The notes below the pieces were generated by a model that was not told where the DNA came from, did no database searches, and saw nothing but the letters and a program-made list of their open reading frames with translations. 43,953 bases of DNA from Saprospiraceae bacterium (GTDB lineage: Bacteria; Bacteroidota; Bacteroidia; Chitinophagales; Saprospiraceae): NCBI GenBank assembly GCA_020629965.1, contig JAHDCG010000019.1, forward strand, positions 1 to 43,953, read 5' to 3'. This document shows, one piece after another, positions 20,608 to 24,453 of the stretch. A program made the position numbers and the translations under genes. Numbering within the stretch: the stretch's first letter is position 1; each line of letters starts with the position of its first letter.

Positions 20608-22008
20608 TTGAGAAGACACAAAAACATACTGTTTTACCTGCTGCCGGCGGTGTGCTTTTTTCTGTCGGCATCGACTTTCGCGGCGGCTCAATCTTCCGAA
20701 ATTTATCTAAAATTTGCGATAGAATTTACCGATAAAAACAACCCTTCCTTTTCTTTCGATAAGCCCCTCGCCTACCTTTCGCCGCGTGCCGTACAGCGTC
20801 GAAAAAACTTCGCTATTCCCCTCACCGCTTCTGATTTTCCGGTCAATTCACAGTATCTTACAGGTCTGCGCCCCTTCATCGAAGAAATTTGCGTCACTTC
20901 CAAATGGCTCAACACTGTCTTGGTGATTGCCGCTGCCGATAACCGAGAAGCAATGGAAAAATTACCCTTCGTCAAATCCGTAAAATACGTCGGCAAATCG
21001 GGGAGACCGCGCCTGCTGCTGCGGCGCGGCGGTAAAAATGCGGACGAAAAACCGCCCGACGAAAAAACGGAAAATCCTTACGGTTTCTCGGAATTTCAGA
21101 ACAGGTCCCTCAATCTGCCGCCGCTGCACGCGCAAAATTATCGAGGGGAAGGCATGTTGATTGCCGTACTCGACGGCGGATTTACCAACGGCGATATCAT
21201 GCCTTTTTTTGACAAAGCAAGGCACGAAAATCGAATATTGCCCGGCTACGATTTTGTCGAAAATGACGATTACGTTTACGAAACGACGGCGCACGGCTCG
21301 CAGGTTTTGTCCGTCATGGCCGCAGACATTCCGCACGTAATGGTAGGCTCTGCGCCCGATGCGGCCTACGTTTGCCTCAAGACGGAGGACAACAGCGGCG
21401 AATACCCGGCGGAAGAAATGAACTGGGTCGCTGCCCTCGAATACGCGGACAGCATCGGTGCCGATATTGTCAATTCTTCTTTGGGCTACACCGAGTTTTC
21501 GGATGAAAGTTTGAGTTACAACTACCGGCATTTGGACGGCAAAACTTCCTTGGCTACCCGTGCGACCGCTTTCGCCTTTCAAAAAGGCATGATAGTCGTC
21601 AACAGCGTAGGAAACGAAGGCGACACCCCGTGGAAATATTTGGATGTGCCCGCCGACGGGGAAAATGTCTTGGCGGTAGGTGCAACCGACCCGGCGGGTT
21701 ACAAGACGAAATTTTCGTCTTTCGGACCGACCGCCGACGGGCGCATTAAACCCGATGTTTGCGCATTAGGAAAAGAAATTGCCGTCGCCTCGGTGTACAG
21801 CATCAAAGTCAACGCAACGAAGGGCACTTCCTTTTCCGCGCCTCTGATAGCCGGGGCGATAGCCTGTCTGTGGCAGGCAGTCCCCTACCGCAGCAACGCC
21901 GAAATACTGGATGCCGTCCTGCGCAGCGGCGATCGCGCAGACCGACCGGATAACGAAACGGGCTACGGCACACCCGACTTTGCGAAGGCATTGGAAATGT
22001 TGAGATAG
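20608..22008 (+). CDS. Secreted subtilisin-like serine protease (S8), TTG start
   Basis: 466 residues. The TTG at 20608 is used because it directly precedes the signal peptide (RRHKNILFYLLPAVCFFLSASTFAAAQ). Residues 50-130 form a propeptide-like region (KPLAYLSPRAVQRRKNFAIP...LNTVLVIAAADNREAMEKLPFVKSVKYVG), a layout seen in many Bacteroidota S8 peptidases. The catalytic triad is D189 (VLDGGF), H229 (TTAHGSQVL) and S408 (GTSFSAPLIAG), with oxyanion N335 (VGNEGD). No C-terminal T9SS sorting domain follows the protease: the chain stops at FAKALEML. So it is probably periplasmic or freely secreted. Downstream lies the repeated intergenic element. Confidence 0.92.
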   Translation: MRRHKNILFYLLPAVCFFLSASTFAAAQSSEIYLKFAIEFTDKNNPSFSFDKPLAYLSPRAVQRRKNFAIPLTASDFPVNSQYLTGLRPFIEEICVTSKWLNTVLVIAAADNREAMEKLPFVKSVKYVGKSGRPRLLLRRGGKNADEKPPDEKTENPYGFSEFQNRSLNLPPLHAQNYRGEGMLIAVLDGGFTNGDIMPFFDKARHENRILPGYDFVENDDYVYETTAHGSQVLSVMAADIPHVMVGSAPDAAYVCLKTEDNSGEYPAEEMNWVAALEYADSIGADIVNSSLGYTEFSDESLSYNYRHLDGKTSLATRATAFAFQKGMIVVNSVGNEGDTPWKYLDVPADGENVLAVGATDPAGYKTKFSSFGPTADGRIKPDVCALGKEIAVASVYSIKVNATKGTSFSAPLIAGAIACLWQAVPYRSNAEILDAVLRSGDRADRPDNETGYGTPDFAKALEMLR

Positions 22009-22021
22009 GTAAAAAAGCGAG

Positions 22022-22176
22022 CAAAAAAAAACTCCTACATCAAAGACGCAGGAGCACTAAACATACTATGAGAAAACTACACGATGCAAAGTAAAGGTTT
22101 AGCGCGGAAAAAAATTAACGAAAATTAGGGAGTGACAAGGAGGAGCGGTAAACGGTAGATTTCGCTTAGAATACGG
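22022..22176. repeat. Unrecognised intergenic element, copy 1
   Basis: Layout on the plus strand: an A-run (22023-22031), a hairpin (CTCCTAC 22032-22038 with GCAGGAG 22048-22054), the core ACATACTATGAGAAAACTACAC (from 22061), then after an unconserved middle ACGGTAGATT (22152) and GCTTAGAATACGG (22164). On the minus strand the hairpin plus T-run is a strong terminator. The plus-strand ATG opens an 8-codon frame. Confidence 0.75.
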
Positions 22177-22345
22177 GAAAAACTAATATGGAAAGGCAGG
22201 TAAAGAAGAAGCGAAAAACTTAATAAAGTTAATATTTTTTAATGCGTAAATATTTGAATGACAGATACATATTTCTTTTTGACGATTTATTTTCTGTCCG
22301 GCACAAAATTAGCCTTAGTCATTACGTCGCCGGAAAAACGAGCGC

Positions 22346-22506
22346 AAAAAAAAATCCTGCCCTTGATTAGATTATCCGAGGCAGGATTGAAAAACATACT
22401 ATGAGAATTTTTTTCACGGAAACTGTTTTATACTTCCGCTGATTGTCTTACTTTTACGGAACGGTAGCGTTTTATGAGGAAACGGTAGATTGGAAAGCGT
22501 CACCGT
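22346..22506. repeat. Unrecognised intergenic element, copy 2
   Basis: A-run, hairpin (AATCCTGCC 22353 with GGCAGGATT 22380, a perfect 9-bp stem), ACATACTATGAGAA (22394), then ACGGTAGATT at 22482, 81 bases after the ATG. The middle differs from the other copies. The plus-strand ATG opens a 13-codon frame rich in aromatic and hydrophobic residues. Confidence 0.75.
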
Positions 22507-22546
22507 TTTTTTCGTATTCGGTTTTAGCGTTTTTTGTTTTTGGAGA

Positions 22547-22709
22547 AAAAAAACCCTGCACCTCAGGAGGGAAACGAAGTGCAGGACGATTAAACAAACA
22601 TACTATGAGAAAACTGAACGCAAGATATAATCTATTTTTCATATTTAAAAATTTTTATATAAAAAAGTCCTAAAATAAAAGCGAACGGTCAGTTTGGCTT
22701 AGAATACGG
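22547..22709. repeat. Unrecognised intergenic element, copy 3
   Basis: A-run, hairpin (CCCTGCAC 22554 with GTGCAGG 22579), ACATACTATGAGAAAACTGAAC (22598), ACGGTCAGTT (22685) and GCTTAGAATACGG (22697). The plus-strand ATG opens a 22-codon frame (MRKLNARYNLFFIFKNFYIK...), basic and hydrophobic. The hairpin is again a terminator on the minus strand. Confidence 0.75.
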
Positions 22710-22750
22710 TCACTTCTCCGCACATAAATTACACTGAAATACTTAAAATT

Positions 22751-22782
22751 CAGCAGCACAGAACTGCTTGAGAAAATTACAC
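22751..22782. repeat. Possible degenerate fourth copy of the element
   Basis: A small hairpin (AGCAG / CTGCT) is followed by TTGAGAAAATTACAC, close to TATGAGAAAACTACAC of copy 1. The A-run and the ACATAC part are missing. Confidence 0.35.
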
Positions 22783-22800
22783 ACACAGTTTTTTACAAAA

Positions 22801-22831
22801 GCGACGGATACTCTCCGTCGCTTTTTTTTTT
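22801..22831 (+). terminator. Strong plus-strand terminator with no gene before it
   Basis: GCGACGGA pairs exactly with TCCGTCGC around 5 bases, then ten T. The nearest upstream plus-strand gene stops almost 800 bases away, so an unannotated short transcript may end here. Confidence 0.85.
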
Positions 22832-22844
22832 ACCGGTGTTGCAT

Positions 22845-22887
22845 AAAAAAATACCGCAACGAACTCAATCATTGCGGTATTTTTTTT
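22845..22887. terminator. Bidirectional terminator
   Basis: ATACCGCAA pairs exactly with TTGCGGTAT, with an A-run before and a T-run after, so it can work on both strands. On the minus strand it ends the 22918-24453 gene. Confidence 0.85.
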
Positions 22888-22917
22888 CAAAAGTGAAGGA
22901 AAATCACCGAAAACGGA

Positions 22918-24453
22918 TTACTTATCCGAACGGTCGGTTTTCATCATTTTATCGGAAGTTTTCTGTCCGTTCAGTTTTTGCAAACTGTCTTTCGCGGCAT
23001 CGAAAAAATTGTAAATAATCGGTGCTTGATCGGTCAGCATTTCCGAAGATTTTAAGTTTTTAGCCACCTGCATCACACGCGAGTCGTTTTTCATTTTACC
23101 CATTGCATTGATGATTTCGGCAGCGGCAATAAAAGCTTCGCTTGTCAGATCAGCGTGGTCGGTTTCTTTCCAGTTCTTCGTAATTTCGTTTGCATTATTT
23201 CTAATGACGGAAATCTTTTGTGAAAAACCGGCAATTTCAATATTTTTGTCTTGCTGCATGGCTTCCAAAGCATTCGTCAATGACATCAAACCGCTGCGAG
23301 TGTAATCATGGTACACATTTACCTCACCGTTTCGCTTGGTGTTGTTCACCCAATTCACAAAACCGTTGATTTTTTGTTGCGTACCTTTTGAAAAAGTCGA
23401 AGTTGCAGACATTTCATTATTCCTGTTATTGTTCTGCATTTCGATTTCATAAATTTTCAAAACCGACAACTGCGGTACAATACTCATCAAAGAGTTCATC
23501 ATCAGACGGTTTTCTACCGCATCTTCATACAGGTAAAATTTTGCGGCTTTATCCACACCGATAATATCTTCCAAACGGTCGAATTGGTCTTTTTTCAACT
23601 CGGCACCGTCATTGATGATTTCCCAGTAATCTTCGATAAAATCAGCGCGGTCTTCCTGTTCGTTTTCAAAGTCGTCGTCTTCCGCCAACTCTTCGCGCAA
23701 ATCTTCCAACAAATCCATACGACGTTCCAAAAGCGCTTCTTTATCTTTCATGTAAGACATATATGCACTCGTAAAACGGGCACTTTCTTTATCGTTCAAG
23801 TCCAAGGCTTTCACCATGGTATTACGCATGTCCACTTTCATTTTCGAGTCGATGTAGCGTTTGTAATCTTCATCCGAAACGTTTTTATCGGCTACTTTCA
23901 CCTTACTGTCGGCAGGTTGCATCTCAATTTGCAACTGACCGTTCACGACACTTTCGGGGAGCAGCATGCTCAAAAAATCTTGTGATGCGTAACGATTAAA
24001 GGCATCGTCCCAAATGAAAAACTGCATGGTTTTTTCCAAACCGATTTTGTCTTCCAGTTTATCGTAAGCATCCTTACGGTCTTCCGATTCGTCGATTTCG
24101 ATTTCCAAAAAGTCTTCGATGTAATCGGCGCGGTCTTCGTTTTGGTTGGCCACACTGTCGTCTTCCTTCATTTCTTCACGGAAGCGTTTAATCAAATCTT
24201 TTTTGCGTTGGTAATATTTATCGCCTTCGGCGGTGTAAGAAGTGTAGAAAAAATCAAAACTGTTGATTTCATCTTCGTTTAAATCCAAAGCTTCGATGGT
24301 TGCGTTGCGAAAATCCATCTGCGCTTTAGCACTCAGATATTGGCGAAAGTCCGCAAACATATCTGCTTGTGACTGTTCTTTCACTTTCATCTGTGCATTC
24401 ATGCTGCCGACAAAGCAGAAAAATGCCAGTATTAATAATGAGAAATTTTTCAT
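22918..24453 (-). CDS. Hypothetical secreted protein with a duplicated helical domain (Spy/CpxP-like pattern)
   Basis: 511 residues with a signal peptide (KNFSLLILAFFCFVGSMNAQ). Two related blocks of about 140 residues follow (about 28-160 and 180-320). Each has KMxxDMRNxxxxALDLNxxE, a tyrosine-rich helix, RxDLxxxxREExxEDD, NxxEDRADxIEDxxEI, and LEDxIGxxKxxxFxxxEDA. The repeating acidic helices recall Spy/CpxP-type periplasmic chaperones, but the motif is not exact and no catalytic residue is seen. A third, different helical region (about 350-511) has KGTQQKINGFVNWVN and ends in a lysine/aspartate-rich tail. Acidic, very helical, periplasmic or surface. I do not recognise the family. Terminator at 22845-22887. 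Confidence 0.75.
   Translation of the reverse strand: MKNFSLLILAFFCFVGSMNAQMKVKEQSQADMFADFRQYLSAKAQMDFRNATIEALDLNEDEINSFDFFYTSYTAEGDKYYQRKKDLIKRFREEMKEDDSVANQNEDRADYIEDFLEIEIDESEDRKDAYDKLEDKIGLEKTMQFFIWDDAFNRYASQDFLSMLLPESVVNGQLQIEMQPADSKVKVADKNVSDEDYKRYIDSKMKVDMRNTMVKALDLNDKESARFTSAYMSYMKDKEALLERRMDLLEDLREELAEDDDFENEQEDRADFIEDYWEIINDGAELKKDQFDRLEDIIGVDKAAKFYLYEDAVENRLMMNSLMSIVPQLSVLKIYEIEMQNNNRNNEMSATSTFSKGTQQKINGFVNWVNNTKRNGEVNVYHDYTRSGLMSLTNALEAMQQDKNIEIAGFSQKISVIRNNANEITKNWKETDHADLTSEAFIAAAEIINAMGKMKNDSRVMQVAKNLKSSEMLTDQAPIIYNFFDAAKDSLQKLNGQKTSDKMMKTDRSDK

Follow-up and report, generated by a model that had tools for sequence, protein, structure and literature searches.

In a window of 43,953 nucleotides from a Saprospiraceae bacterium, the whole stretch of DNA analysed here, one intergenic element stands three times in a row, and the question is what these copies encode and on which strand. 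The initial annotation of this DNA proposed minus-strand small RNAs (sRNAs) with separate terminators, a plus-strand micro-peptide with an antisense RNA, or relics of repeated leaders of lost genes. From the results described below, we consider it probable that the locus is an array of sibling sRNAs, that the array is the output of a LytTR, possibly peptide-sensing, two-component system, and that the RNAs pair through a shared 5' block with mRNAs of envelope and secreted proteins.

Three minus-strand elements in the window

The triplication is real. The copies lie at 22060, 22393 and 22597, have ACATACTATGAGA and the 15-mer AACATACTATGAGAA in common, and each carries a minus-strand hairpin with a U-run. 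Read on the minus strand, every copy consists of TTCTCATAGTATGTT, then the hairpin, then the U-run; the 20-nt block AGUUUUCUCAUAGUAUGUUU, from which copy 2 deviates in letters 2-4, is at the predicted 5' end of the RNA. As predicted from sequence, the window holds an ordered array of three minus-strand sRNA genes of about 55-71 nt, each with tandem upstream boxes, the 20-nt 5' block and a terminator hairpin. The features of the array and its neighbours are as follows.

20608-22008, plus strand: S8 peptidase gene, on one side of the array
22024-22082, minus strand: sRNA copy 1 (class A); covariance match R1 at 22024-22078, E 1.4e-10; folding z against shuffles -4.5; predicted 5' end near 22078-22082
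22023-22055, minus strand: copy 1 terminator hairpin and U-run, from a terminator scan
22059-22078, minus strand: copy 1 conserved 5' block AGTTTTCTCATAGTATGTTT, putative seed, from sequence comparison
22087-22093, minus strand: copy 1 -7 box TACTTTG, of the TAnnTTTG type
22145-22178, minus strand: copy 1 two LytTR-type boxes (22178-22166 and 22157-22145), 21 nt apart
22346-22411, minus strand: sRNA copy 2 (class B); covariance match R1, E 4.2e-7; folding z -4.3
22454-22487, minus strand: copy 2 two LytTR-type boxes (22487-22475 and 22466-22454), 21 nt apart
22545-22615, minus strand: sRNA copy 3 (class C), the leading copy when the array is read in RNA direction; covariance match R1, E 1.8e-10; folding z -3.8
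22596-22615, minus strand: copy 3 conserved 5' block
22621-22627, minus strand: copy 3 -7 box TATCTTG
22678-22711, minus strand: copy 3 two LytTR-type boxes (22711-22699 and 22690-22678), 21 nt apart
22918-24453, minus strand: 511-aa ORF without a Pfam match, on the other side of the array

The 5' block occurs once per RNA and was predicted to be single-stranded when the window RNAs were folded. A plain terminator scan recovered two of the three window hairpins. TAnnTTTG is what we take to be the Bacteroidota -7 box consensus. By sequence, an own promoter and an intrinsic terminator are present in the copies of the family; copy 2 of the window, which starts with AAAA and not AGTT, is an exception in that its promoter, judged by eye, has no clear -7 box. 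The Rfam scan of the window gave no match at the gathering score, relaxed E-values gave 22 matches in 21900-22900, every one below its cut-off, and the tRNA/tmRNA search found none.

The shared box motifs of the initial annotation, ACGGTAGATT and GCTTAGAATACGG, were found again, but what had been taken for one single box is two minus-strand direct-repeat boxes, 21 nt apart, before each copy. The pairs start at 22711/22690, 22487/22466 and 22178/22157, so that copy 2 has two boxes as well. A possible fourth copy was not confirmed inside the window; further copies sit elsewhere in the genome.

The plus strand was the basis of the two other readings. An ATG is present in the block complement of every window copy, which is what a type I toxin-antitoxin-like pair of a plus-strand micro-peptide and a minus-strand antisense RNA would call for. 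However, this ATG is the mere complement of the sRNA 5' block, and the frames that it opens enter the sRNA promoter region, which differs between copies and relatives. Such a pair also calls for a conserved small hydrophobic peptide opposite the antisense RNA. No shared peptide was seen by eye among the plus-strand frames of the window or at this place in relatives, and we regard such a pair as extremely improbable. As to relics of repeated leaders, no gene of at least 80 aa begins on the plus strand right after the element in the window, and the element is conserved with compensatory changes across many genera; this reading is not supported.

Two further observations concern the region beyond the array. 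Between it and the 511-aa ORF, two strong adjacent inverted repeats with T-runs (22797-22889) are usable as terminators. The ORF itself contains stretches that appear repeated by eye (those at about 23634 and 24112 are alike), perhaps by internal duplication.

Spread, structure and order of the family

The reading of the copies as minus-strand sRNAs with separate terminators is backed by covariation, promoters, boxes, array order and a wide spread in one bacterial family. The 15-mer gave 53 matches in 20 of 60 genomes, including this one, and all 20 were Saprospiraceae; the reversed 15-mer gave one match in the 60 genomes, so the 53 are far above chance. Matches often came two or three per contig. 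When named genome contigs were scanned with AGTTTTCTCATAGTATGTTT, at least 119 stretches came up, and among the 80 matches listed most were from Saprospiraceae, with two from Phaeodactylibacter and two from Lewinella. Copies in other genomes, on which the initial annotation had made its proposal depend, were thus found, and the covariance model matched 79 of 150 Saprospiraceae genomes. In the order it matched 41 of 298 genomes, of which 40 were Saprospiraceae and one, outside the family, gave a weak match in a 61%-complete genome. In the phylum, 2 of 395 genomes were matched, both Saprospiraceae and one of them this genome.

From 123 loci, 199 distinct block matches were collected. Six copies without a clear U-run were excluded from the class counts, and the remaining 193, with a U-run, include at least one site (C82, L004) later read as a target leader. 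For the alignment, 110 non-redundant copies were chosen, of which 97 were aligned. In these 97 copies, compensatory changes were found at all 10 stem pairs; at pair 38/66, for example, 64 copies have A-U and 29 have G-C. The hairpins noticed in the initial annotation are therefore real, but their stems are not quite as unrelated as had been stated: they fall into recurring classes with compensatory changes. The 5' block is nearly invariant among the collected copies, which is partly imposed by the exact search word, whereas the -7 box, the hairpin and the upstream boxes are independent of that word.

Four classes were defined. Class A has GTGT or GGT before the block and typically the stem CTCCTACATC, class C has GTTT after the block and the stem CCTGCACC, class D has TGATTTTCCTACTGC or TGATTTTCCTGCTGC, and class B comprises all other copies, often with CCTACACC. 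The order of classes in the 54 multi-copy arrays was BA (17), CBA (15), CB (8), CA (6), BB (4), CBBA (2), CBB (1) and BBB (1), and class A was last in all 40 arrays that contain one. The window array has, in RNA order, C (copy 3), B (copy 2) and A (copy 1). Among the 20 class D copies, 12 come after prs and 14 precede a rhodanese gene. Loops are often C-rich or pyrimidine-rich (CCCTTCT, CCCTCC, GCCTCCC), and a further site of pairing may lie in the C-rich loop.

In this genome, copies beyond the window are located in C120 and C133, and variants in C93, C117 and C73. Several highly similar sRNA genes are thus present in one genome, as is expected of sibling sRNAs. Four copies at G000:C117:29937-30507 (L253, L165) and one at G000:C73:9853 carry GGTGTTCTCATAGTGTGTG in front of a GC-rich hairpin and U-run and form a second seed variant with the same architecture. 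At G000:C93:9035-9187 (L162), close to the end of the contig, a glucosaminidase gene (PF01832) is followed at once by a unit of about 90 nt (TTTTCTCATGTATGTTC and a hairpin) in direct repeat. The family and its structure were computed directly, and the evidence is strong that this sRNA family is real, conserved, ordered and new.

Upstream boxes, two-component genes and a double-glycine peptide

In the copies of the family, the start of the TAnnTTTG-type -7 box is mostly at -12 (81 matches) or at -13 to -17. Upstream of the copies, pairs of the word ACC[GA][TC] occur 85 times at a spacing of 21 nt and 9 times at 20 nt, and 17 and 16 times at 41 and 42 nt, that is, twice the step; every other spacing from 5 to 69 has at most 6. 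A matrix trained on the upstream regions, TACC[GA][TC]TT[CT]CTAA, found at least one box before 180 of 193 copies (shuffled 35.8), a pair at 20-22 nt before 99 (shuffled 0.2) and a triple before 33 (shuffled 0), counts that are flattering because the matrix and the shuffled control derive from the same sequences. The modes of the box position are -97, -76 and -55 from the block, and 162 of the 178 box pairs in all collected loci stand in front of sRNAs. This geometry, direct repeats about 21-22 nt apart upstream of a promoter, fits binding sites of LytTR regulators.

A search for the boxes over this whole genome was swamped by dispersed repeats of the ACCGTCA type; such ACCGTCA/ACCGTCC heptamers occur genome-wide, e.g. 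at C6:51962, C139:23244 and C82:36222. Box matches in C38 and C199 were rejected as regulon sites since they are located inside ORFs. At G000:C78:3861 (L365), three LytTR-type boxes about 21 nt apart precede a 464-aa ORF without a Pfam match, and this ORF is possibly a further member of the regulon.

The genes near the arrays point to a regulator. One cluster of TPR histidine kinases (PF06580 in the tested member) supplies the nearest upstream gene, in the same orientation, at 47 of the 123 loci, and in 24 loci a LytTR response regulator gene (PF04397 in the tested member) precedes the kinase gene. A PBP1C gene faces the array in 22-24 loci. Many of the 123 loci are too short to display kinase, regulator and PBP1C together. 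In many relatives the order is LytTR regulator, double-glycine-leader peptide, TPR histidine kinase and then the array. Among 60 genomes, 17 had both a regulator orthologue (at least 284 bits) and the sRNA, 3 the sRNA alone, 1 the regulator alone and 39 neither, and the regulator was 2-3 kb from the array in 10 of the 60. Among 150 Saprospiraceae genomes the corresponding numbers were 63, 16, 6 and 65 (Fisher p 6e-20, in a test that ignores shared ancestry). In two of the six regulator-only genomes, G247 and G275, the contig with the regulator also carries weaker sRNA matches, at a distance of about 2.4 kb. The boxes, the gene linkage and the co-occurrence were computed directly, and together these sequence comparisons strongly support a link between the sRNA family and LytTR regulation.

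In G028, which is without a regulator orthologue, none of the three copies retains a box pair, though two retain a single box (one case). The link has exceptions. The class D copies retain box pairs in 20 of 20 cases, against a simple regulator-box rule. The regulator orthologue of this genome is located at G000:C207:40434, away from the window array, and the 11 kb surrounding it yielded no kinase. Upstream of the regulator gene, a box pair was found in 0 of 41 loci, and a control inside the gene gave 1 of 41. LytTR-type boxes between the regulator and the peptide, at the 3' end of the regulator gene, were seen among the 41 loci in both genomes of this genus only.

The position of the arrays also bears on whether the elements could be terminators or attenuators of upstream genes, i.e. 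3' UTR elements and not independent sRNA genes. Every copy ends in a hairpin and U-run, and in relatives the first copy comes right after the kinase gene in the same orientation, which would suit such a role. Most copies, however, have a -7 box and upstream boxes of their own, and some arrays, that of the window among them, are not next to a kinase gene; it is very unlikely that the elements are only the ends of other transcripts.

The small ORF between the regulator and the kinase encodes a double-glycine-leader precursor, of 45-57 aa in the aligned set (e.g. MGKNKKKLSELKKDLKTLKKEEMIKIVGG/KKGKRKSQSNNGCGGILPQ). Counted by hand, 36 of the 42 distinct regulator loci have such an ORF after the regulator; of the other six, two have a similar C-terminus minus the GG and four have none. 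An alignment of 26 sequences shows almost no variation at the two glycines and at a C-terminal proline, and the majority C-terminus is GCGGI-x-PQ. The precursor of this genome, MGKTKKGIDKILKNDKAERLENDEMKDILGG/RGKKKKFRLIRFSFRDIMPS, is located after the regulator. When eight peptides were scanned against Pfam and NCBIfam, none was above the cut-off. The best score with the ComC family model was 16.1 bits, far below the cut-off of 50, so the peptide is not filed as ComC.

In ComCDE/Blp operons, one locus combines a LytTR regulator with a histidine kinase and a double-glycine precursor. The order regulator, precursor and kinase recalls these operons: a small double-glycine precursor adjoins the LytTR regulator and kinase genes (36/42 loci; no kinase is beside it in this genome). 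This is the basis for a quorum-sensing reading, in which the peptide would be the signal sensed by the kinase. Alternatively, the peptide may be a secreted bacteriocin or modified product and not the signal of the kinase, with regulator, kinase and array still linked. A resemblance, below cut-off, to TIGR04149 and to type-A lantibiotic leaders is in line with a product, whereas its position, flanked by regulator and kinase, together with CGGI-x-PQ as the majority C-terminus, recalls pheromone operons. In the available part of a survey of modified peptides in Bacteroidales, a cluster with a kinase/regulator pair is described and tetratricopeptide-like genes are mentioned (PMC10352776), so a product peptide stays open as a reading, one that we hold to be a serious possibility though short of probable.

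A seed-complement site was also seen 73 nt before an ORF at G033:C114:147704; this ORF looks to us like a C39-peptidase ABC exporter, presumably of the kind that would export double-glycine peptides.

Candidate targets and comparison with known systems

The complement of the 5' block is AAACAUACUAUGAGAAAACU / AAACATACTATGAGAAAACT. In four genomes (G000, G001, G002 and G020) it covers the start codon of a gene for a DUF6089 outer-membrane protein. In this genome (C74) the run is 17, with 15 Watson-Crick pairs, and in the other genome of the genus (G001), whose protein is 74% identical to that of C74, it is 15. In L097 (PBYL01000066.1), a 20-nt complement covers the start of a caspase-domain ORF; this sequence is recorded as Thalassovita sp., a bin that we suspect is mislabelled and really Bacteroidota. 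Two genomes have the complement in the leader of a glucosaminidase gene, the two genes being similar (L013 and L079, with Pfam run on L013); 29 other glucosaminidase loci had no site with at most one mismatch. Each of the two genomes of the genus also has a double site, with 28-40 nt between its parts, in the leader of a large secreted protein (G000:C82:26596-26638 and G001:C88:14659-14711); the two proteins are similar, and the G000 copy has Por_Secre_tail. The double site may be a double target site, a sponge or a relic. Several of the complement sites, including L178 and L017, were found by the motif search itself.

The counts give the following picture. The 13-mer YRTACTATGAGRR had 49 matches in eight sRNA-bearing genomes (about 52 Mb), of which 26 were counted as sRNAs or sRNA-like, and 6 in eight sRNA-lacking genomes (about 39 Mb); the reversed 13-mer gave 10 and 7, respectively. 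Complement sites at start codons were no rarer in sRNA-lacking (2-3 of 6) than in sRNA-bearing genomes (7-8 of 23). At flanking gene starts, runs of at least 13 occurred in 3 of 564; shuffled seeds averaged about 1, with a highest value of 4 in one of the control sets. This is no clear excess, and there was none at runs shorter than 13. From 50 DUF6089 start regions 45 could be scored, and two had runs of at least 13, as against 2 of 436 background starts. Among 30 DUF6089 loci, L178 had 17 and L179 had 15, and the others had at most 12 where the start was found, so most DUF6089 starts are without a complement site. In G000 (C138:3890-6129) and in G001 (C192:7388-9652), one contig each has glucosaminidase and DUF6089 matches close together; both families hold sRNA-complement sites elsewhere.

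A different role of the block has to be weighed: it could be a protein-binding or titration site, like a CsrB-type sponge, in elements that would still be sibling sRNAs, with the complementary mRNA sites arising by chance. The block is almost invariant, yet the candidate targets differ among genera, and the complementarity at flanking gene starts is not clearly above that of shuffled seeds. On the other hand, the block is predicted to be single-stranded and occurs once per RNA, and its complement lies over the start codons of homologous DUF6089 genes in four genomes and in the leaders of similar glucosaminidase genes in two. A protein-binding or titration site seems unlikely to us. Pairing with envelope-gene mRNAs via one shared seed is what we take to be most likely, although the target controls are mixed, and the DUF6089 outer-membrane proteins are the best candidates for targets.

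The array of sibling sRNAs would most likely work as follows. Each sRNA of about 55-71 nt, in the class order C, B and A, would be transcribed independently from the minus strand, as a common single-stranded 5' block of about 20 nt plus a terminator hairpin of its own. Activation of each gene would come from a LytTR-type response regulator at two or three boxes spaced by 21 nt, and the partner of this regulator would be a TPR-containing histidine kinase of the LytS type, whose gene is between the peptide gene and the array in many relatives. Through the shared block the RNAs would pair with mRNAs of envelope and secreted proteins, at their start regions or in their leaders, and repress translation. 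We infer transcription, binding of the regulator, the direction of regulation, the targets and the signal function of the peptide from sequence. A wider circuit, in which a double-glycine pheromone (mature form about ...NNGCGGIVPQ) acts on the TPR kinase, and this on LytTR at phased boxes, so that sibling sRNAs silence outer-membrane and murein-hydrolase mRNAs at start codons or leaders, is put forward only tentatively. If true, it would be a quorum-sensing RNA system in Bacteroidota resembling Qrr and RNAIII, and, if the peptide is the signal, peptide quorum sensing with an RNA output in a Gram-negative group. We know of no such peptide system with RNA output in that group, and to our knowledge few sRNA families have been characterised in Bacteroidota. 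A search of the open-licence literature, partly judged by title, found no earlier report of a Saprospiraceae sRNA family or of a double-glycine/LytTR circuit. With a regulator and targets proposed, the binding site predicted and the seed fixed, each step can be tested in a cultured genus, e.g. Phaeodactylibacter.

The closest system within the phylum is FopS of Bacteroides thetaiotaomicron, multicopy sRNAs with a single-stranded 5' seed followed by a terminator hairpin, which bind near the start codon of outer-membrane susC mRNAs and whose regulator is described, in the available part of the paper, as unknown (PMC11697453). The sRNAs of Saprospiraceae are likewise multicopy with a 5' seed and a terminator, but they stand in tandem ordered arrays with tandem LytTR-type boxes and two-component linkage; the two were compared by description, from the partial text, and the window had no Rfam match at the gathering score. 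In Listeria, several near-identical LhrC sRNAs under LisRK answer envelope stress and have CU-rich motifs, one of them in the terminator (PMC4132741). Like these and the CiaR-dependent csRNAs, the present family would place several near-identical sRNAs under one two-component system; the regulators there are CiaRH and LisRK, no peptide gene is mentioned in the available parts of the texts, and the likeness is one of description and not of sequence. OmrA and OmrB stand in tandem and hardly differ in their first 21 nt, and the Qrr sRNAs of quorum sensing have the response regulator LuxO as their activator (PMC4211561). They share with our family a constant pairing region in several copies, as far as the available text describes them, but are proteobacterial; membership by sequence was compared through Rfam only.

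Regulators of the same domain type are also known to control RNAs. RgaR carries a LytTR domain, RNAIII, in the AgrA system, is the P3 product, and in the VirR-VR-RNA system a VirR-like regulator activates a regulatory RNA. At the spoZ sRNA promoter of C. difficile, RgaR needs direct repeats with a critical G at -51 and -72, 21 nt apart (PMC10602386), and AgrA of S. aureus is a LytTR/VirR-like regulator that activates a regulatory RNA (PMC4227749). In all of these, to the extent of the available texts, such a regulator drives an RNA output, and the Saprospiraceae boxes at about -55, -76 and -97 from the block are comparable. Unlike these Firmicutes systems, the present one has sibling arrays, is found in Bacteroidota and is linked to a TPR-type kinase. 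With ComCDE/Blp it shares the LytTR regulator, the histidine kinase and the double-glycine precursor in one locus; it differs in that its kinase has TPR repeats, in that 30 of the 32 kinases longer than 550 aa are without a strongly hydrophobic segment, and in that its peptide reaches 16.1 of the 50 bits for ComC.
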